Positions 12,770-24,353 of a DNA stretch of 40,656 nucleotides are shown piece after piece. The position numbers and the translations under genes were made by a program. The stretch is from Deltaproteobacteria bacterium (lineage in GTDB: Bacteria > Desulfobacterota > Syntrophorhabdia > Syntrophorhabdales > JANXAF01): NCBI GenBank assembly GCA_026417175.1, contig JAOADT010000001.1:107448-148103 (forward strand). Direction: 5' to 3'. Within the stretch, counting starts at the first letter, position 1, and every line of letters begins with the position of its first letter. The notes below the pieces were generated by a model. The model did no database searches and was not told the origin of the DNA. It worked only from the letters and a program-made list of their open reading frames with translations.

Positions 12770-12810
12770 AATTCCGAGCTCCTTTTCAGGGGTCTCGGAA
12801 TTTTTTTTTA
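12770..12810 (+). terminator. Intrinsic terminator of etfBA
   Basis: A nine-base-pair stem AATTCCGAG (12770-12778) with CTCGGAATT (12794-12802), followed directly by a run of T. It separates etfBA from fdhA. Confidence 0.88.
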
Positions 12811-12826
12811 TTTTCTCATGCAACTT

Positions 12827-12835
12827 TGCTACAAT
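12827..12835 (+). promoter_or_regulatory. Candidate extended -10 promoter of fdhA
   Basis: TGC followed by TACAAT (5 of 6 to consensus) at 12830-12835, forming an extended -10 element. The -35 region is poor. The preceding terminator makes a separate promoter here likely. Confidence 0.4.
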
Positions 12836-12876
12836 TAATAACATAAGTAAGGAAGTACCATTCTAAAGGAGGGGCG

Positions 12877-15546
12877 ATGAAGCTTCATATTGACGGAAGG
12901 GAAATAGAAGCCAAAGAGAATGAAACGATCCTTTCATGCGCAAAAAGGCAAGGTATACGTATCCCTACCCTGTGCTATATGGAGAAACTACTTCCAATAG
13001 GATCATGTCGCCTCTGTGTAGTCGAAATTGAAGGATATGAGAAACCAGTTCCCGCTTGTGAAACTTATGTGTCAGAGGGTATAAAAATTTGGACCAACAC
13101 GGAAAAATTGAAAGAAACTAGACGAGAAATTCTTCAATTCCTCCTTCTGAATCACCCTCTAGATTGCCCTATCTGTGATAAAGGCGGAGAGTGCGTTCTC
13201 CAAGATCTGGTTTACGAATACGGCATTGAAAAGGTAACATTACCTAAATTTAGGCCAAAGAAAATTGAGGTTACTTGGTCAACCCCTGCGATTAAATACC
13301 ATCCTTCTCGATGTGTTCTTTGTCAAAGATGTGTGAGGGTGTGTAGAGAGTTAGTAGGAAGGGATGTACTAGACATCGTCGAGCATGGCTATAATGCGAG
13401 AATAGAGCCTGTGCGTCCTGAAAACTGTATAAGTTGTGGAGAGTGTCTCTCAGTCTGTCCAGTGGGCGCATTAACTGAAAAAATAAGTCCTATTAAAGGA
13501 AGACTTTGGCAGATAAAAAGGGTTTCCACGGTATGCGGGTACTGTGGTGTAGGTTGCACATTACAGCTTAATGTCTTGAACAATACTATTATAAAAGTGA
13601 CAACAAATGGGATACCGGGTCCTAATAATGGTACTTTGTGCATAAAAGGCCGATTTGGATACGAGTTTGTGGGAAGCAAGGATAGATTAAGAAAACCCCT
13701 TATTCGGGTGCAAGAAGATTTTGTTGAGACAAGCTGGGAAGAGGCCCTATCCTATATAGCAAAAAGATTCTCTGAGATTAAGGAAAAACATGGTAGTGAT
13801 AGCATAGGAGGTCTTTGTTCTGCTCGATGTACCAATGAAGATAATTACCTTTTTCAAAAATTCATGCGCGCAGTGATTGGCACTAACAATGTGGACCACT
13901 GCGCAAGGCTTTGACACTCACCGACGGTGGCAGGTCTTGCCACAACTTTAGGTTCTGGAGCAATGACTAATAATATCGAAGACTTTAAAAATGCGGAAGT
14001 TATAATAGTACTTGGCAGTAATCCAACTGAAAACCATCCTGTTATTGGAATGTGGTTAAAATATCTTGCAAGGTATAAGGGGACTAAACTCATAGTAGTC
14101 GACCCCAGGGCAATAGACCTAGTAGAAGAGGCAACCATTTTCCTTAAAATAAGACCTGGAACAGATGTAGCTCTGATAAATGGTTTTTGTCACGTCATAC
14201 TAAAGGAAGCCTTGTATAATAAGGATTTTATAGAGGCACACACAGAAAACTTCGAAAAAGTTGCGCAGACAGTAGAAAAGTACAATCCCATATATGTGGA
14301 AGAGATAACTGGTGTCCCAGCAAAAGAAATTGAAAATGCAGCAAGAATGTACGCAAAGGCAGAGAGGGCATCTATAATTTACTGTATGGGATTAACGCAA
14401 CATTCCCATGGAACGGATAACGTGAAAGCTCTGTCTAATTTGGCTCTTCTTTGTGGCCATGTGGGCAAACCGGGATCAGGCATAAATCCGCTCAGAGGAC
14501 AAAATAATGTCCAAGGTGCATGTGATATGGGTGGACTACCAAACGTCTTTCCTGGGTATCAGAGAGTGGAAGTACCCGAAATAAGGGAAAAATTTGAGAA
14601 GGAATGGGGGAAAAGATTATCCGATCGACCTGGTATGACACTTACTGAAATGGTCGAGGCTGCTATAAATGGAAAACTTAAGGCAATGTACATAATGGGA
14701 GAGAATCCTTTAGTTACAGATCCTGACCTGAATCATGTAAAAAGGGCCTTAGAATCTCTTGAGTTTATCGTTGTACAGGACATATTTTTTACAGAAACAG
14801 CGAAATTAGCCCATGTAGTTCTTCCTGCCTGTTCCTTTGCAGAAAAGGATGGTACATTTACTAATACGGAAAGGAAGGTCCAACGGGTAAGAAAGGCTGT
14901 TCTTCCACCAAAAGAAGCAAAACCCGATTGGGAGATTATAATGATGCTAGCCAAGAATTGTGGATATTATATGGATTACAAATCCCCAAAAGAGGTTTTC
15001 GAAGAAATCCGAAAAGTTACCCCCCAGTATGCCGGTATAACTTACGAACGACTTGAAGCAGGCGGTATTCAATGGCCATGCCCAAGTGAAGATCATCCGG
15101 GTACCCCCATATTACATGTAGGTCGAATAGCTAGAGGGAAGGGTCTTTTTGTCCCTGTAGAGTATAGGCCTCCGGTCGATGAATTAAACCCTGACTTTCC
15201 GTACGTTCTTATTACTGGTCGTCATTATTATCACTATCATTCGGCGACGATGACGGGAAGATCGGAACTAATAAGTAGATTGGCGCCTGAACCATTTCTT
15301 GAGTTGAACCCTGCTGATGCAGAGCCTTTAGGAATAAAAGATGGGGAAAATGTAAAAGTGGAAAGCAGAAGGGGATCTGTTGTACTTAAAGTAAAAATTA
15401 CAGATCGGGTTCAAAAAGGTACAGTTTTTGCTACTTTTCATTATCCCGATTCTCCCATAAACTTGTTGACCAATACTGTTTTAGATCCAGAGTCAAGAAT
15501 AGCAGAACTTAAATTCGCTGCTGTAAGGCTGTCAAAAGTCGTGTGA
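12877..15546 (+). CDS. fdhA: Formate dehydrogenase alpha subunit, selenocysteine-containing (TGA at 13912)
   Basis: Interconverts formate and CO2 at a molybdenum or tungsten bis-pterin centre. Read through TGA at 13912-13914 as Sec346 it gives 889 residues. N-terminal 2Fe-2S ligands are C33, C44, C47 and C61. A NuoG-like site follows (H93, C97, C100, C106), then two 4Fe-4S clusters (C146, C149, C152, C156 and C184, C187, C190, C194). The catalytic domain begins with its own cluster (C220, C223, C227 and one near 254). The active site reads DHCARL-Sec-HSPTVAGLA, matching Sec formate dehydrogenases. AAAGGAGGGG precedes the ATG. No NuoE/F-like beta or gamma subunit is adjacent. A plain gene caller will split it at 13914. 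Confidence 0.95.
13912..13943 (+). promoter_or_regulatory. Bacterial SECIS element with Sec UGA codon
   Basis: After UGA (13912-13914) a hairpin forms with stem GTGGCA (13927-13932) and TGCCAC (13938-13943) and loop GGTCT (13933-13937). Eighteen bases separate the UGA from the GG of the loop, within the range used by SelB. A GGU-type apical loop is characteristic of bacterial SECIS elements. Confidence 0.88.
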
Positions 15547-15690
15547 ATTAATCAGTTTCACCTCCGGAGATTGTACTTTTTTTAATGACTTTTCGTATCT
15601 TAATAGATGTTCCGTCTCTGCGTGGGATTTTAAAATTTTTCTTCGGTTTATACCTTAAGAAGCCTTTTCCAACATTGCAATTAATGTAGA

Positions 15691-15785
15691 AACAACAACA
15701 AGTGTTGAATTAATATACACTTTTTGATCTCTATATTTTCTATGTTTTTCTTTTACTGGAGAATCTTACAACACTCGTGTCAATT
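15691..15785 (+). promoter_or_regulatory. Two candidate upstream activator sites
   Basis: CAACA-AG-TGTTG at 15696-15707 and CAACACTCGTGTC at 15769-15781 (core ACAC-TC-GTGT) have related half-sites. Their centres are about 74 bases apart, close to seven helical turns, and lie about 150 and 76 bases before the predicted sigma-54 start. This fits enhancer-binding-protein sites, but the arms are short. Confidence 0.35.
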
Positions 15786-15825
15786 CGAAATGTTTGTATT
15801 GCATTGAACTTGTAAGCTAGGAAAG

Positions 15826-15840
15826 TGGCACAACTGTTGC
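15826..15840 (+). promoter_or_regulatory. Sigma-54 promoter of the 57-residue protein gene
   Basis: TGGCAC-AACTG-TTGC followed by A matches the -24/-12 consensus exactly, with GG and GC twelve bases apart. The predicted start is near 15852, 20 bases before the ATG at 15872. Confidence 0.85.
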
Positions 15841-15871
15841 AAACCTTTAAAGGTAGAAAGGAGGTGTTACT

Positions 15872-16045
15872 ATGAACCATGCGATAATTGAGATAGCAAC
15901 CGTGGTCACCGGAATTGCATATGGTTTAGTTGTTTTCATTCCTCTTATTGGGATATTTGCTGGTATTTTTAAAACTGCCACCAAGGTAAAAAAGGAAGAT
16001 GTTTTAAAACTTACTTTAATAAAAAAGCCGGTCCCTGCTCTTTAA
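15872..16045 (+). CDS. Small single-span membrane protein (57 aa), unknown
   Basis: I do not recognise this protein. It begins MNHAIIEIATVV, has one long hydrophobic stretch (about residues 4-33) rich in Gly, Ile and Val, and ends in a basic tail (KTATKVKKEDVLKL). That suggests a single-span inner-membrane peptide with the C-terminus in the cytoplasm. Evidence that it is real: a perfect AAAGGAGG seven bases before the ATG, a consensus sigma-54 promoter placed so that the leader is 20 bases, and activator-like palindromes upstream. It is alone between fdhA and the lysE gene. It could act as a stress peptide or a small regulator of a membrane enzyme; neither is shown. Confidence 0.72.
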   Translation: MNHAIIEIATVVTGIAYGLVVFIPLIGIFAGIFKTATKVKKEDVLKLTLIKKPVPAL

Positions 16046-16187
16046 AAAAGTAAAAGGATCTTGTGAAATTGACTAGGGCACTTCTGCAGTTGCTGTTATT
16101 TGCATGAAAAGCGATTATCTCTCCACATGTAACTTCCAAACAATTATGGTCCCTTTAGTCAGTCCTCTCACCAGCCTATATGCAAGA

Positions 16188-16257
16188 AGTATCCTTAGTT
16201 ATTTCTCAATAGCCTATTTGTTGGGTTTGCTAAATCTTTTTCTGGACTAAGGATACT
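16188..16257. repeat. 12-base perfect inverted repeat
   Basis: AGTATCCTTAGT (16188-16199) and ACTAAGGATACT (16246-16257) are exact reverse complements separated by 46 bases. They end about 16 bases before the lysE start, so they may form a leader hairpin in the transcript or mark a small mobile remnant. Confidence 0.6.
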
Positions 16258-16273
16258 GATTTGCAGTAAAAGA

Positions 16274-16921
16274 TTGATCGTGAATCTATTTACACTCTTT
16301 TATATCGGATTTATCCTTGGCCTCACCGGAGCCATGGCACCAGGTCCTTTACTTACCGTTACTATCAGTGAATCATTAAAAAGAGGAGGAATAGTAGGTC
16401 CGCAGTTATCCTTGGGCCACAGTATTCTGGAATTTTTTCTTCTCGTTCTCATAGTTTTCGGATTTACGAAATGGCTAAATAACGATACAGTGTACGGTGT
16501 TATAGCCCTTTTGGGAGGGGCTCTGTTGATCCGAATGGGATATCTAATGATCAAAGCTATACCAACTTATACATTGGGTGGTAATCTAATAGACAAACGA
16601 GATGGACTGCATCCTTTAATCCTTGGAATCATAGTTACTCTCTCAAATCCTTATTGGTTCATATGGTGGTTAACAATTGGTGTGGGATATGTGATTTTCG
16701 CAAAAGATATGGGTTTTGCAGGACTTGCAATGTTTTTTTTGGGACACATATCATCGGACTTCGCCTGGTACAGTTTTGTTTCCTATGGTATCCGTTTTGG
16801 TGGTCGGGTCATAAAAATGCCCGTATTAAAAGGTATTCTACTTTTTTGCTCTATCTTCCTACTATTTTTTGGAGGATCTTTTCTCTATAAAGGCTTTAAA
16901 CTTCTATTCATTCTCCCGTAG
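16274..16921 (+). CDS. LysE/RhtB-family membrane transporter
   Basis: Predicted amino-acid or small-metabolite exporter of the inner membrane. The N-terminal motif GLTGAMAPGPLLTVTISESLKRGG is the family signature (G-x-x-x-PGP). About six hydrophobic helices fill the 215 residues, with LSNPYWFIWWLTIG in the fourth region, also typical. Start choice is uncertain: TTG at 16274 or GTG at 16280, neither with a good ribosome binding site. A 12-base inverted repeat lies just upstream. The TPR gene follows closely. The substrate is unknown. Confidence 0.85.
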   Translation: MIVNLFTLFYIGFILGLTGAMAPGPLLTVTISESLKRGGIVGPQLSLGHSILEFFLLVLIVFGFTKWLNNDTVYGVIALLGGALLIRMGYLMIKAIPTYTLGGNLIDKRDGLHPLILGIIVTLSNPYWFIWWLTIGVGYVIFAKDMGFAGLAMFFLGHISSDFAWYSFVSYGIRFGGRVIKMPVLKGILLFCSIFLLFFGGSFLYKGFKLLFILP

Positions 16922-16955
16922 ATTTTAAAGAATCCCTATGGTATCATCAGATTGT

Positions 16956-18623
16956 ATGAAGAAAATCATATCGGTTTTTCTGGTGATTTTACCTTTAATT
17001 GCTAATAGCGCTGAATTATCTTCTTCAATTTATCACTATTTAAAAGGCTTGGATCGCGCGGAGCGCGGACTTTACAGGGAGGCGATAGCCGAGATAGAGA
17101 ATGCGCTTAAGTTTGACCCTTCATCATCGGTTTTGCGAACAGAATTGGGAAATCTCTACATGAGGATAGGAGAATTGGCAAAAGCCGAAGAACTACTTAA
17201 AGATGCTTTGGCTATAAATCCCAAAAACAGGATGGCTCTTCTTCTTCTCGGTGGATTGTATTCGGTGAAAAGAGATAGCCAGAGTGCAAAAAAGATTTAC
17301 GAGCAATGTATCCAAACTTTCGAAGACGACACAGAGTGCTACGTGCATTTAGCATCCATACTTTTATCTGAAGGTAAATTTTTGGAAGCAAAAAGTATTT
17401 ACGAAAAAATAGCTCAATACGACCCTGACAATATTATAGCCCTTTACTATCTTGGCAGAATCTTAGCAGAAATGAAGGATTATAAGTCCGCTAAAAGTTA
17501 TTTCTTGCGCCTTTTGGAAATTCGTCCCAACTTCGAAATGGCGTTATTCGATCTTGCCACTTTATATGAGATTGAAGGGGAAACTTCAAAGGCAAAAGAA
17601 CTTTATGAGAGAATATTGCTGATCAACCCATCTAATAGGATAGTCAGGAATCGAATGGCCAATATTTATGTAAGGGAAAAGGAATATGAAAAGGCGATTT
17701 TTGAATATGAACAAATTTATCAGATTGATCGTAAGGACTTATCACTTCGGGTGAAAATAGGACTTTTATACATGGAGATGGGAAGGTTCGATGATGCCAT
17801 AAGAGAGTTTAATCTTTTTCTTGCTTCAAATCCAAAAAACCATACGGTCAGGATGTATCTCGGTCACGCTCTAAGAGAAAAGGGTCTTCTTAAGAACGCC
17901 ATAGACGAGTTCTCAAAAATTCCTCCAGATGCAGATGAATTTCTCATAGCACTCAGAAACTTAACCATCCTTTTCATCCGCGCGGAACTTCTGGATGAAG
18001 GAATAGAAAAACTGAAAACCTACCTGGAAAAAGCAAAGGAAAAGAAAGAAATTTACGTTTTACTTTCCTTACTGTACGAGGAAAAAACCGACTACAACTC
18101 AGGAATTAAGATGCTCCAAGAGGCTTTAAAACTAGATCCCAAGAGTTTAGATACACTTTACAGTTTAGGGATGCTTTACGAAAAGTCTGGAAATACGGAT
18201 GAAGCGCTAAATTGCATGCAAAAGATACTCTCTGAGGATCCTGAGCATCCAGACGCTTTGAACTTCATCGGTTACACGTTCGCTGAAAGGAATATAAACC
18301 TTGATGAAGCGGAAGCGATGATAAAAAAAGCTCTTTTAAAAAAACCAGATGCGGGATACATCATAGACAGTCTGGGATGGGTCTATTTTAAAAAAGGCTT
18401 ATTACAGGAGGCACTTGAGCAGATACTCAAAGCCCATGAGCTTCTCCCAGATGATCCAACAATCTGCGAGCACTTGGGAGATATTTACACAGCCATGGGT
18501 AAGTACGATAAGGCTATTGAATTTTTTGAGAAGTCTCTTAGCTTTGAAAAAAGGGAAGAAAAAAGAAAGGAGGTGGAAAGAAAGATTAAGGAAATAAAAA
18601 ATAAGATGGAAAAAGGAAGCTAA
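16956..18623 (+). CDS. Exported TPR-repeat protein
   Basis: A tetratricopeptide protein with an N-terminal signal peptide (MKKIISVFLVILPLIANSA). About fourteen TPR units fill residues 30-545, recognisable by recurring patterns such as A-x-x-x-L-G-x-x-Y and the P at the turn (for example PDNIIALYYLGRILAEMKDY). It should act as a periplasmic scaffold for protein complexes, perhaps in envelope assembly. An upstream ATG at 16938 would add six residues before the signal peptide; I chose 16956. It is followed after ten bases by a lipoprotein gene, suggesting a pair. No enzymatic domain is visible. Confidence 0.85.
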   Translation: MKKIISVFLVILPLIANSAELSSSIYHYLKGLDRAERGLYREAIAEIENALKFDPSSSVLRTELGNLYMRIGELAKAEELLKDALAINPKNRMALLLLGGLYSVKRDSQSAKKIYEQCIQTFEDDTECYVHLASILLSEGKFLEAKSIYEKIAQYDPDNIIALYYLGRILAEMKDYKSAKSYFLRLLEIRPNFEMALFDLATLYEIEGETSKAKELYERILLINPSNRIVRNRMANIYVREKEYEKAIFEYEQIYQIDRKDLSLRVKIGLLYMEMGRFDDAIREFNLFLASNPKNHTVRMYLGHALREKGLLKNAIDEFSKIPPDADEFLIALRNLTILFIRAELLDEGIEKLKTYLEKAKEKKEIYVLLSLLYEEKTDYNSGIKMLQEALKLDPKSLDTLYSLGMLYEKSGNTDEALNCMQKILSEDPEHPDALNFIGYTFAERNINLDEAEAMIKKALLKKPDAGYIIDSLGWVYFKKGLLQEALEQILKAHELLPDDPTICEHLGDIYTAMGKYDKAIEFFEKSLSFEKREEKRKEVERKIKEIKNKMEKGS

Positions 18624-19985: not shown

Positions 19986-20036
19986 AGTTTCAACCTATTA
20001 TTAAGTACCATAAGAAATCGCAAGAATAAAGTCTAA

Positions 20037-20052
20037 TCGACAAATTCGTCGA
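20037..20052 (+). promoter_or_regulatory. Candidate activator site upstream of the zra-like operon
   Basis: TCGACAAATTCGTCGA is a near-perfect palindrome (one mismatched pair) centred about 128 bases before the predicted sigma-54 start at 20172. A half-site-like TTCGACAAAATT occurs at 20067-20078. The position suits an NtrC-type activator such as the one encoded at 22998. Confidence 0.5.
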
Positions 20053-20145
20053 CTTAACTGTTAGATTTCGACAAAATTTTACTCTGCCTATCTAGATGTT
20101 GCCAAGAATATCTTTAATTTCAACATGTTACGGATGACGGATTCT

Positions 20146-20161
20146 TGGTACGGCCCTTGCA
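20146..20161 (+). promoter_or_regulatory. Sigma-54 promoter of the zra-like operon
   Basis: TGGTAC-GGCCC-TTGCA matches the -24/-12 consensus with one deviation (T for C) and correct GG-to-GC spacing. The start is predicted near 20172, 21 bases before the ATG, with AAGGAGG at 20181-20187. Confidence 0.78.
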
Positions 20162-20192
20162 ACATCTTCAGAAAAACTAAAAGGAGGTTCAG

Positions 20193-20624
20193 ATGAAGAA
20201 ACATTTAGTCGTCCCATTGATGGTAATCGGTTTAGTTTTTCTCGGAGCTTATGTGGCTCTCGCTCGGGGTCCAATGGCTGGTATTTTTGGTTGCGGTCCC
20301 GGGATTTACGCAGATCTTTCAAAGGAACAGGCGGAAAAGCTGTGGCAGATAAGGGAAAAATTCAGAAGTGACACGGAGACTTTGAGAAAGGAGATGTTTC
20401 ATAAGAGACTAGAGCTTAGAAAACTTTACGCGGATCCGAATGCAACTGAGGAACAGATTCGTGCAAAACACAGAGAACTAAATACTCTGCGAGAGAAGCT
20501 TTCCGAAAAAAGACTCGAACGGACACTCCAAGAAAGAAAAGTCTTCACACCTGAACAGCTAAAAAAAATTACTGAAGCTCCATTTGATAAGCACGGTTAC
20601 GGAAGATTCTGCAGGTACAGATAA
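20193..20624 (+). CDS. Periplasmic Spy/ZraP-like chaperone
   Basis: A 143-residue secreted protein. The signal peptide MKKHLVVPLMVIGLVFLGAYVALA is followed by a helical, highly charged domain with two LTxxQ-type motifs (DLSKEQ near residue 45 and VFTPEQ near 118). This is the CpxP/Spy/ZraP family of periplasmic stress chaperones, which bind unfolded proteins and, in ZraP, zinc. His and Cys residues near both ends (FGCGPG and DKHGYGRFC) could bind metal. It is the first gene of an operon ending in a kinase and an NtrC-type regulator, the same logic as zraP-zraSR although there zraP is divergent. Confidence 0.82.
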   Translation: MKKHLVVPLMVIGLVFLGAYVALARGPMAGIFGCGPGIYADLSKEQAEKLWQIREKFRSDTETLRKEMFHKRLELRKLYADPNATEEQIRAKHRELNTLREKLSEKRLERTLQERKVFTPEQLKKITEAPFDKHGYGRFCRYR

Positions 20625-20648
20625 ACCGAATTGACAAAGGAGGGCCCT

Positions 20649-21032
20649 ATGCGGGTTATAAATATCTTATTACTGGGATTAATAACCTCGTTTTTTCTTT
20701 CATCCTGTGTCTCGACAGGTTATAATACACAGAAAGGTGCAGCAATTGGAGCTGGGATTGGGGCGATTGCTGGACAGGCGATTGGAAGAAACACCCAGGC
20801 TACACTTATAGGAACCGCAACAGGAGCCCTCGTAGGTGCAATTATTGGAAATTCATTCGATCAAGAGTTGATTTGGAGCAAAATGGGTTCTAATCAGACA
20901 AAAGGTGGTTCGTCGTGCCCCGACACGAATTATGATGAGTGTCCACCCGGCAAGTGGATTCAAGTTCCTGGAAGGTGGAAAGACGGAAGATGGGTTCCAT
21001 CACACAGGGTATGGGTACCGCAGGATCCGTGA
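20649..21032 (+). CDS. Glycine-zipper lipoprotein
   Basis: Starts MRVINILLLGLITSFFLSSC, a lipoprotein signal with lipobox LSS-C at residue 20. Next come two glycine-zipper segments (AIGAGIGAIAGQAIG and GTATGALVGAIIGN) at about 31-70, as in 17-kDa surface antigen and SlyB-type outer-membrane lipoproteins. The C-terminus has two short aromatic repeats (GKWIQVPGRWKDGRWVPSH) resembling YXWV-type wall or surface motifs. The ATG at 20649 with AAAGGAGGG upstream is preferred to the in-frame TTG at 20631. Its stop overlaps the next start (TGATG). Likely an envelope-stress effector. Confidence 0.82.
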   Translation: MRVINILLLGLITSFFLSSCVSTGYNTQKGAAIGAGIGAIAGQAIGRNTQATLIGTATGALVGAIIGNSFDQELIWSKMGSNQTKGGSSCPDTNYDECPPGKWIQVPGRWKDGRWVPSHRVWVPQDP

Positions 21033-21430
21033 TGTGGGCGATTGTTGTTTGGTTTCTGGCCCTCTCTTTTGCCCTTCCTCTCCGGAGCCAGGAAACTTAT
21101 GAGGATCTGGAGAGGGAGCTTAATTTAGATGCTCAGCAAAAAATTAAAGTGGAACAAATAAGGCGTAGGTATTTAGACGAAATTTTGACTACCAGGGAAG
21201 AAATTCTCAAAAAAAGATTTGAACTACTTAACGAAACTAGAAGTAATAGACCTGATCACCAAAAGATATCAAAGATTAGGAAGGACTTGGAGGAATTAAG
21301 AGCGAGACGCGAGATACTTTTCGAAAAATACAGAGACGAGGTTCAGGCTATTCTTAACTCAGACCAAAGGAGAAAGTTTGATGATTTTTGCAAGAGAGAA
21401 AGAAGAAGGTTGAAGCGTCCTGTAGACTGA
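21032..21430 (+). CDS. Second Spy/CpxP-like periplasmic protein
   Basis: From the coupled ATG at 21032 (TGATG overlap) the product is 132 residues. It has a signal peptide MWAIVVWFLALSFALPLRSQ, then a long charged helical region with LNLDAQQKIKVEQIRRRY and ILNSDQRRKF. These are the two LTxxQ-type elements of the family. Longer in-frame starts at 20939 and 21011 put non-signal-like sequence in front, so I reject them. Two such chaperones in one operon suggest a pair acting with the sensor kinase, perhaps damping it as CpxP or ZraP do. Confidence 0.75.
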   Translation: MWAIVVWFLALSFALPLRSQETYEDLERELNLDAQQKIKVEQIRRRYLDEILTTREEILKKRFELLNETRSNRPDHQKISKIRKDLEELRARREILFEKYRDEVQAILNSDQRRKFDDFCKRERRRLKRPVD

Positions 21431-22996
21431 ATGATACATAGACAAAAGAAAAGGATTTATTACTTCCTTCTGTTTTTCGGAACATTTCTGATCTTTATCG
21501 GGGTCACCGGATATGTTCAAATATCCGGTCTTCAAAGAAACATGGAAGCCCTCCTAGAAAAAGAGGCGGAAATAATATACGGACACTTTTTAAGAGAGAT
21601 CAATATACAGTTTGAGTATCTCGAACTTGTTGACCGTTCTATTTTCATAATGACCCCAAGTTTTTTAGATGTGATGACATACGAAGAAACAGTCATAGAA
21701 AAACTCATCTTGGAGCTAATGGATGCTATCGAAAATGATCCGCTAAACATCCCAGTGCAAAATTACATACTTTTAGATAAGGAAGGTAAAACCATAAAAA
21801 AAAGAGGCAACACCTTATATTTAGAGAAATTGATTCCAACTCTCCTTTCAGGTAAGGAAAGAGTTTCATTGAGGACAAAGGCAGACGATGACAACTATTT
21901 AACCTTTGGACTAAGACTTAATGAGAATTTCTTGATTTTTTCCCTCTCAAAAAAAGAGACAGCAGAGATAAAAAGGAAGTACCTACTCAAAGATATAATA
22001 GAAACGGTATCTGAAAGACTTAATTTAGTGGGATTATCCATCTACGACGCAGACGGTAAACCATACTACACTTCTTATCCACAAGATGAAAGGTATTTCA
22101 AGTTCAGGAAATCCATAAACTCTAAGTATCTGCAAGGATATTCCGTGGAAATACTACTTTCCCGGGATCTCATTGACGAAACTTTGAAGAAAATGACAGT
22201 TCATTTGTTGATCACGCTTCTATTTCTTGTAGCATTAAGTGGGGTTACAGGTTACGCTATTTTTGTTGTGGAGCGGAGACTTGAAAAAAAAATAGTTGAA
22301 TTTGAGAGGGATATGGCAAGAAAGGAAAGGCTCTTGTCACTTGGTATGCTTTCTTCCACAATGGCTCATGAGATAAGAAATCCGCTCAATGCCATATCGC
22401 TTTCGCTGCAAAGGCTAAAACGGGAATTCCTACCGTCAGATTCAAGAAGGGATGAATTTGTAAGATTTCTGGATGTAGTAGGCGGGGAGGTTTCCAGGAT
22501 CAACAGGATAGTTGAGGATTTCCTTTTACTTTCCAAACCTAAAGGTAACCTTGAACATGTGAACCTTAGGGTCTTAACAGATGAGGTTTTCCTTTTGTTA
22601 AAGGAAAAGGTTGAACCTAAAGGAATAGAGTTAAAAAATCTTTTGCCTAACGAAGCCACAGTCAAAGGACAGAGAGAGAGGTTAAAACAGCTCTTTTTCA
22701 ACTTGATCCTTAACGCTGTTGAAGCCGTAGAAGAGCGAGGATACGTTAAAGTAAGTGCAGAGAAACATCCTGGGGGTATATGGATTAAAATCGAGGATAA
22801 CGGATCGGGAATAGAAAAGGAAAAACTAGAAAAGATATTTGAGTACCACTACACTACCAAAGACAAAGGGATAGGGTTAGGACTCCCGATTGCTTATACG
22901 ATAATAAAGGATCTTGGAGGCGAAATAAAAATGGAAAGTGAAAAAGGTAGAGGAACGACTGTAAAGATCTTATTTCCTAGAAACATTAATAGTTAG
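21431..22996 (+). CDS. Sensor histidine kinase (ZraS/NtrB-like)
   Basis: A membrane kinase of 521 residues. TM1 is at about 10-29, a periplasmic sensing region at about 30-255, and TM2 at about 256-280. The H-box MAHEIRNPLN has phospho-acceptor H313. The HATPase elements are NLILNAVEAV, DNGSGI, and GIGLGLPIA. The periplasmic part looks like a double-Cache fold (NYILLDKEGK, LSIYDADGKPYYTS). It begins directly after the Spy-like gene stop and is followed by its regulator after one base. Together with the ZraP-like proteins it probably senses envelope damage or metal. Confidence 0.92.
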   Translation: MIHRQKKRIYYFLLFFGTFLIFIGVTGYVQISGLQRNMEALLEKEAEIIYGHFLREINIQFEYLELVDRSIFIMTPSFLDVMTYEETVIEKLILELMDAIENDPLNIPVQNYILLDKEGKTIKKRGNTLYLEKLIPTLLSGKERVSLRTKADDDNYLTFGLRLNENFLIFSLSKKETAEIKRKYLLKDIIETVSERLNLVGLSIYDADGKPYYTSYPQDERYFKFRKSINSKYLQGYSVEILLSRDLIDETLKKMTVHLLITLLFLVALSGVTGYAIFVVERRLEKKIVEFERDMARKERLLSLGMLSSTMAHEIRNPLNAISLSLQRLKREFLPSDSRRDEFVRFLDVVGGEVSRINRIVEDFLLLSKPKGNLEHVNLRVLTDEVFLLLKEKVEPKGIELKNLLPNEATVKGQRERLKQLFFNLILNAVEAVEERGYVKVSAEKHPGGIWIKIEDNGSGIEKEKLEKIFEYHYTTKDKGIGLGLPIAYTIIKDLGGEIKMESEKGRGTTVKILFPRNINS

Positions 22997-22997
22997 T

Positions 22998-24353
22998 ATG
23001 AGCGAACTAAATATCCTTGTGGTTGAAGACGAGAAACTTCAAAGGGAGATTCTTTCTGGCCTCCTAAGAAAGGAGGGGTATTCCCTATACGAAGCAGAAA
23101 CAGGTGAACAGGCCTTGAACATACTTGATAGGTATCCGATCGATGTATCTTTGGTAGACCTTAAACTACCTGACACAGATGGCGTAAGTCTAATAAAAGA
23201 GATGAGAAAAAAGGACCCTGAAATCGACATTATTATGATCACCGCTTTCGGAACCATAGAAACAGCCATAGAGGCTCTAAAAGCAGGGGCTGGAGACTAT
23301 CTTACAAAACCTGTTAATTTTGATGACCTTCTAATAAAGCTAAAAAAGATAAAGGAAAAGAGGAGTCTAATTTCGGAGAATAAAGTCTTAAAGGAAACAT
23401 TAAAAGAAAAACTGAAGGCTGAGGACTTCGTATTTGCAAGCGATAAAATGAAGGAAGTAGCAAGCCTCATAGTAAGGGTGGCTAAAACAGATTCTACGTG
23501 TGTGATTGAAGGAGAAAGCGGTGTTGGAAAAGAAATTGTAGCGAATCTCATTCACAGACTAAGCGAAAGAGCAGAATATCCACTAGTAAAAGTTAATTGC
23601 GCTGCTATACCGGAGACTCTGCTCGAGAGTGAGCTTTTTGGGTATGAAAAAGGAGCGTTTACAGGTGCCTATCATCGAAAATTAGGAAAGTTTGAAATAG
23701 CGGATAAGGGGACTATATTTTTGGACGAGATTGGAGAGATACCTCTTTCTATTCAGCCAAAGCTTTTGCGCGTTCTTCAAGAGAAGGAATTTGAACGGCT
23801 GGGAGGATTAAAACCGTTAAGGGTGGATATAAGAATTTTAGCAGCAACAAATAGAAAACTGGAAGAGCTGGTAAAAAAAGGACTTTTTCGTGAAGATCTA
23901 TACTACAGGTTGAACGTCGTTAGGATTTATGTGCCTCCCTTAAGGGAGAGAAAAGAGGATATACCGTTTCTTATAGAACACTTCATAAAAAAGTATAGTT
24001 TTAGACATAAAAAGGAAATAAAGGGGATATCAAAAGAAGCTAGGGATTTACTCATTAAGTACGACTACCCGGGCAACGTAAGGGAGCTTGAAAATATGAT
24101 CGAGCGTGCAATAGTATTAACGAGAGGGGAATACATCACTAAGGAAGATCTTGCTGGCATTTCTGACGAAGAAAAAGTGGAGAAAAAAATCACTATGAAG
24201 AGCGTTATTGAGTCTATAGAGAAAAGTATGATAGTAGAGGCTTTACAGAAATCTAACTGGGTACAGACTAAGGCAGCTTCCCTTCTTGGTTTAAGTGAGA
24301 GAATGCTAAGATATAAACTTAAAAAATACGGAATCGATAGAGAAAGTTCTTAA
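22998..24353 (+). CDS. Sigma-54-dependent response regulator (NtrC/ZraR family)
   Basis: A 451-residue activator. Receiver domain has D54 as phosphorylation site and K104 in LTKP. The AAA+ domain has Walker A GESGVGKE at 172-179 and GAFTGA at 219-224, the loop that contacts sigma-54. The Fis-type DNA-binding helix-turn-helix is at about 425-446 (QTKAASLLGLSERMLRYKLKK). It is the last gene of the five-gene operon, whose own promoter is sigma-54 type, so positive autoregulation through the palindrome at 20037-20052 is likely. The 57-residue gene at 15872 may be a second target, though its upstream palindromes differ. Confidence 0.95.
   Translation: MSELNILVVEDEKLQREILSGLLRKEGYSLYEAETGEQALNILDRYPIDVSLVDLKLPDTDGVSLIKEMRKKDPEIDIIMITAFGTIETAIEALKAGAGDYLTKPVNFDDLLIKLKKIKEKRSLISENKVLKETLKEKLKAEDFVFASDKMKEVASLIVRVAKTDSTCVIEGESGVGKEIVANLIHRLSERAEYPLVKVNCAAIPETLLESELFGYEKGAFTGAYHRKLGKFEIADKGTIFLDEIGEIPLSIQPKLLRVLQEKEFERLGGLKPLRVDIRILAATNRKLEELVKKGLFREDLYYRLNVVRIYVPPLRERKEDIPFLIEHFIKKYSFRHKKEIKGISKEARDLLIKYDYPGNVRELENMIERAIVLTRGEYITKEDLAGISDEEKVEKKITMKSVIESIEKSMIVEALQKSNWVQTKAASLLGLSERMLRYKLKKYGIDRESS

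Follow-up and report, generated by a model that had tools for sequence, protein, structure and literature searches.

Sequence evidence for a stand-alone, tail-less relative of the small membrane peptide of an Hmc-like operon, preceded by a consensus sigma-54 promoter

The ohc operon of Desulfovibrio encodes a cytochrome/Fe-S/membrane redox complex that is under the control of the sigma-54 activator DVU3142, and in D. alaskensis a lone ohcB gene is left that is still under the same sigma-54 control (PMC4641369). The Hmc complex of Desulfovibrio (HmcABCDEF) has HmcD as its small membrane subunit. In Pelobacter carbinolicus, the gene for LarG, a GcvH-like protein, lies near act (PMC3543383). Here, we analyzed a stretch of 40,656 nucleotides (the window; C11:107448-148103) from a 2.15-Mb genome of the order Syntrophorhabdales (G000), in which an earlier note had singled out an ORF of 57 codons as a small membrane protein gene of the sigma-54 type with its own control sites. 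We consider it probable, on the sequence comparisons given below, that the 57-residue peptide is a tail-less version of the small single-span membrane subunit found in an Hmc-like quinone/cytochrome c oxidoreductase and that its gene stands alone, under the switch of that complex.

The ORF occupies positions 15872 to 16045 of the forward strand and starts with the ATG at position 15872. A -24/-12 sequence upstream of it on the same strand, TGGCACAACTGTTGCA (15826 to 15841), matches the sigma-54 consensus TGGCAC-N5-TTGCW exactly, with GG and GC 10 bp apart, and rpoN was found in the genome. In a pattern search, no other exact match was found in the window, and the 2.15-Mb genome had four in all. 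Upon reading, two of these four were found to be intergenic with a gene start just downstream, namely, TGGCACAACTGTTGCA and a site at C6:17708. The latter (L024 3709-3760) closely follows an ORF with a Fis-like C terminus and closely precedes the gene of an ABC-type substrate-binding protein. At sigma-54 promoters, transcription starts 11 to 12 nt past the -12 element, which would leave the ORF a leader of about 20 nt. This leader contains the Shine-Dalgarno sequence AAAGGAGGTG (15857 to 15866, forward strand). The codon score of the ORF, calculated against the codon use of the window's own genes, was 0.34 bits/codon (5 to 95% range of real genes, 0.10 to 0.43), and those of the remaining two forward frames were -1.3 and -0.5 bits/codon. 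The ORF thus looks coding and has the codon composition of a real gene. Together with candidate activator sites upstream, recognized from their sequence only, these data bear out the earlier view of a small membrane protein gene that has a consensus promoter, a 20-base leader, a strong Shine-Dalgarno sequence, and control sites of its own.

The earlier note did not recognize the product. Neither Pfam nor NCBIfam has a model for its family: searches of both collections with the peptide and its paralogs gave no real match, and the HmcD model (NF045712, NCBIfam) matched none of them. A protein search returned a single weak paralog from G000 itself and another from a genome of the same family, and an alignment search returned three family copies in G000 and more in its same-family relative G001. 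A hidden Markov model (HMM) built without the window peptide scored it at 29.6 bits, a value reached by none of 2,000 region-wise shuffles, all of which stayed at or below 18.4 bits; a second window-free profile recovered the peptide genome-wide with an E value of 3.6e-7. The resemblance therefore exceeds mere helix composition, and the peptide has, as judged from these profiles, two homologous paralogs in G000, both encoded inside an Hmc-like operon on contig 44. At the phylum level, a three-sequence model found almost nothing beyond the family, whereas a seven-sequence window-free model did. The 57-residue peptide has the single N-terminal hydrophobic helix of its relatives with the pattern AY..VV..PL.G. 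Hydropathy indicated one span at approximately residues 5 to 33 with lysines after it, suggesting an N-out/C-in orientation under the positive-inside rule. A single-sequence AlphaFold model gave one long helix (residues 3 to 51), which was expected and adds little. Given that the ORF looks coding and that its peptide has homologs in a protein family, a small RNA is disfavored as the product of the promoter.

The genes of the paralogs are parts of a large cluster. In G000, the order of the contig-44 cluster is GcvH-like protein, peptide, GcvH-like protein, kinase, sigma-54 regulator, c3-type cytochrome, peptide, HmcB-like protein, HmcC-like protein, and GcvH-like protein. Much the same cluster was found in G001 as far as the second peptide, and a different contig of this genome carries an additional HmcB-like gene. 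Similar operons were present in other Desulfobacterota, one Syntrophorhabdaceae MAG, and two Acidobacteriota MAGs. The proteins encoded were closest to HmcB (E value of 1e-88), HmcC (E value of 7e-114), and the TmcA/HmcA-type cytochrome, with all three types of match below the NCBIfam equivalog cutoffs. The three GcvH-like proteins are encoded at L036 13479-14102, 14262-15182, and 6165-6878; the 207-aa member has Asp at the position of the lipoyl lysine of the H protein and is therefore probably not a lipoate carrier. The kinase carries two heme-type motifs, CxxCH and CxxxxCH, and matched the chemoreceptor sensor domain PF21563 weakly, below the cutoff. A search of the available literature found no account of the peptide, of its TMADGGE tail, or of this type of Hmc-like operon.

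The upstream sequences link the window peptide to this operon. Reading of the paralog promoters revealed a 19-bp palindrome that recurs upstream of their sigma-54 sites, and we trained a position weight matrix (PWM) solely on the four Hmc-like operon promoter sites of G000 and G001, leaving the window out. The best score in the 40-kb window, 19.7 bits, was that of GTGTTGAATTAATATACAC (15702 to 15720, forward strand), a primary enhancer-like site or upstream activating sequence upstream of the peptide gene; the runner-up scored 10.7 bits, and the best score over 20 Markov-simulated 40-kb sequences was 15.0 bits. The third best score in the window, 10.6 bits, was that of a secondary, weaker enhancer-like site, CTGGAGAATCTTACAACAC (15756 to 15774, forward strand). 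The two sites are 54 bp apart, about five helical turns. The two upstream palindromes described earlier thus exist, but their boundaries had to be redrawn, and the proposed spacing of seven turns does not hold.

Several further observations on these sites can be made. (i) Only three places in G000 are within one mismatch of the enhancer consensus, namely, both contig-44 operon promoters and the promoter of the 57-residue peptide; in G001, such places are both operon promoters and a third one that lies upstream of the additional HmcB-like gene. As we estimate that about one such match per genome is expected by chance from base composition, the positions of these matches carry more weight than their count. 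(ii) Matches with two mismatches elsewhere in the genome were about as numerous as those to a reversed control pattern and were discarded; among those inspected, a good sigma-54 site was never found where the spacing would require one. (iii) A paired second site was present 53 to 55 bp downstream in all five promoters considered (two operon promoters each in G000 and G001, plus the peptide promoter), and in these the sigma-54 site starts 70 to 82 bp past the second site; the second sites are the weaker members of the pairs, and some were picked by eye. (iv) In another seven genomes, the sigma-54 promoters of the operons are preceded by motifs similar to the enhancer (for each genome, 0 or 1 of 200 shuffles). 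The peptide promoter thus has the arrangement of the putative contig-44 regulon, that is, a consensus enhancer, a second site 53 to 55 bp downstream, and then the sigma-54 site.

We are highly confident in the joint statement that the ORF appears to be coding and homologous to the contig-44 peptides, that it is preceded by a consensus sigma-54 site, and that its upstream sites match the contig-44 enhancers, the order and the 53- to 55-bp spacing being the same in both. The earlier suggestion of a self-contained, undescribed unit thus gives way to that of a paralog of a conserved Hmc-like operon peptide, with an enhancer common to both. Since the two operon promoters and the peptide promoter are the only places in G000 that depart from the consensus by no more than one mismatch, membership of the peptide in the regulon of the contig-44 kinase/regulator pair is most likely, and, because the same DNA switch is found on both, it is probably made when the Hmc-like complex is made. 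The C-terminal recognition region of the operon regulator is conserved among the genomes in which it was checked, and the other sigma-54 regulator encoded in the window has a different one. We regard it as likely that the kinase with its two c-type heme motifs would sense a periplasmic redox or ligand signal and phosphorylate the adjacent NtrC-type regulator, which would bind the enhancers and activate sigma-54 RNA polymerase at all three promoters together. Somewhat less firmly, but still on the side of likelihood, the peptide would insert N-out/C-in as one helix and associate with the NrfD/HmcC-like membrane subunit.

The window peptide differs from its relatives at the C terminus. The tail LG(F/L)TMADGGE is invariant in all seven aligned family members, and the 57-residue peptide lacks it, ending instead in LKLTLIKKPVPAL; for this reason we filed it as a paralog and not as a full member. 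A second tail-less member is the in-operon copy in another genome, G055. A tail of the form LG(x)TMA(D/N)GG also ends several MFS transporters and NrfD/HmcC-like subunits (L131, L132, L134, L135, L138; L144, L146, L147), two of the transporters (L132 and L134) scoring above the cutoff of the L-lactate transporter model SfMCT. No description of a tail common to the peptides, NrfD subunits, and MFS transporters was found in the literature search. As the same tail is found on some NrfD/HmcC-like subunits and lactate-type MFS transporters, it hints at a module and at NrfD as the partner of the small peptide. For the biochemical role of the 57-residue peptide, we favor an alternative or modulating small subunit that would be co-induced with the complex. 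We can say only tentatively that it acts in this manner or as an assembly factor; because the conserved cytoplasmic tail is missing, it would not be a full substitute. In a bolder and quite unlikely version, the tail would serve small peptides, NrfD subunits, and lactate-type MFS transporters alike as a modular docking tag on the cytoplasmic side, possibly for GcvH-like proteins. The tag-less peptide would then be a co-induced competitor that fills the membrane site but recruits no cytoplasmic partner and in this way acts as a built-in brake of the respiratory complex.

The missing tail also speaks against our explanation, as the peptide may not be doing the usual job of its family. The main rival is a duplicate in decay: the gene would once have encoded a small subunit and have lost the part for the tail, with its promoter and enhancer not eroded so far. 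The locus history can be read in this way: among three same-family genomes, the locus is present in one only, and it has no conserved neighbors. The ORF is flanked by fdhA and lysE and not by GcvH-like, HmcB, or HmcC genes, and no gene of the Hmc-like complex adjoins it. In both family relatives (G001 and G002), the gene for a TPR protein follows within approximately 100 bp of the fdhA ortholog (79% and 54% identity, respectively), and none of peptide, promoter, and lysE was found between the two genes. The peptide-lysE block (approximately 15547 to 16937, from fdhA to the TPR gene) is therefore specific to G000 among the genomes compared and was either inserted in this lineage or lost in the others; with the ORF absent at the locus in both relatives, there are no orthologs to show selection on it. 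A repeat or mobile origin of the block was discarded after a DNA search of the three genomes, in which it was single copy. Against a duplicate in decay, however, stand a clean ORF of gene-like codon composition, its strong Shine-Dalgarno sequence, an exact sigma-54 promoter that has the top consensus score among the promoters compared, and a tail-less member that resides inside an operon in G055. We consider this rival unlikely. The upstream fdhA-like gene (12877 to 15546) contains an in-frame TGA at approximately 13912 to 13914 within CARL-U-H and a SECIS_3 element (13909 to 13967; 48.3 bits, below the gathering score of 63 bits; E value of 3e-9), the only hit in an Rfam scan of positions 12800 to 17000, and is a predicted selenocysteine formate dehydrogenase gene read as two ORFs.

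Alternatively, the promoter may chiefly serve the downstream lysE, the peptide ORF being a passenger or leader. No intrinsic-terminator-like site was found between the peptide gene and lysE, and the transcript may therefore run on into lysE, which belongs to the same block missing from both relatives. However, the 10-nt Shine-Dalgarno sequence stands in front of the peptide gene, and lysE, which has no comparable one, starts only beyond an inverted repeat and at a distance of more than 220 bp. Orthologs of lysE (55 to 62% identity) occur elsewhere in the order, none with the peptide upstream, so lysE was also dismissed as a conserved partner of the peptide. Furthermore, a mere leader would not be the homolog of a conserved family whose operons bear the same enhancer. 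We consider this reading very unlikely. The inverted repeat (AGTATCCTTAGT / ACTAAGGATACT, 16188 to 16257) is perfect over 12 nt with a 46-nt spacer and is not followed by a T run; the stability of the hairpin is not unusual (z score of -1.4), and it is not terminator-like. The earlier note had named, as its own refutation, an ORF that is not conserved and a promoter that drives a small RNA or lysE; ORF, promoter, and lysE are indeed all absent at the locus in both relatives, yet the family of the peptide is conserved at other places, and the ORF looks coding.

Control of the peptide by the ZraSR-like kinase and regulator (21431 to 24353) within a regulon for envelope or metal stress is hardly credible: this sigma-54 regulator is only 7 kb away and has a sigma-54-like site of its own at 20146, but its putative target region (19986 to 20938) lacks an enhancer match (best score of 5.4 versus 19.7 bits), and its C-terminal DNA-binding sequence is unlike that of the operon regulator. 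The ZraPSR-like set (20146 to 24353 of the window) comprises two Spy/ZraP-like small proteins, a histidine kinase, and the sigma-54 regulator; its sigma-54-like site is TGGTACGGCCCTTGCA.

With the 57-residue peptide placed in the contig-44 regulon, what was an orphan micro-ORF would belong to a defined regulon in which its membership can be tested, and both a likely regulator and a likely physical partner could be named. The reconstructed candidate binding motif recurs across several families of one phylum. The analysis also outlines a family of small membrane peptides in Hmc-like quinone/cytochrome complexes that lacks a Pfam or NCBIfam model, as well as a C-terminal tag that these peptides have in common with NrfD subunits and with some MFS transporters. 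Should the tail-less copy modulate the complex, anaerobic respiration would have a small protein among its regulators.

The operon and the peptide compare with the described systems as follows. (i) As in Hmc, the paralog operon encodes HmcB-, HmcC-, and cytochrome-like proteins and a small single-span peptide. In contrast to Hmc, it includes GcvH-like proteins, no HmcEF-like proteins were identified in it, and the HmcD model matches, weakly, only the N-terminal helix of one GcvH-like protein and not the peptides. (ii) Like the act and alternative complex III-like operons, it encodes a GcvH-like protein beside an NrfD-type menaquinol complex (PMC3543383); no sigma-54 small peptide is described in the accessible part of that source, and the 207-aa GcvH-like protein here has Asp in place of the lipoyl lysine. 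(iii) With Ohc, it has in common a sigma-54 enhancer-binding protein, whose activator role is predicted here, a cytochrome/Fe-S/membrane complex, and a lone target gene. DVU3142 is encoded divergently from ohc, whereas here the regulator gene is inside the operon beside that of the heme-motif kinase, and the lone target is an Fe-S subunit there and a small membrane peptide here.
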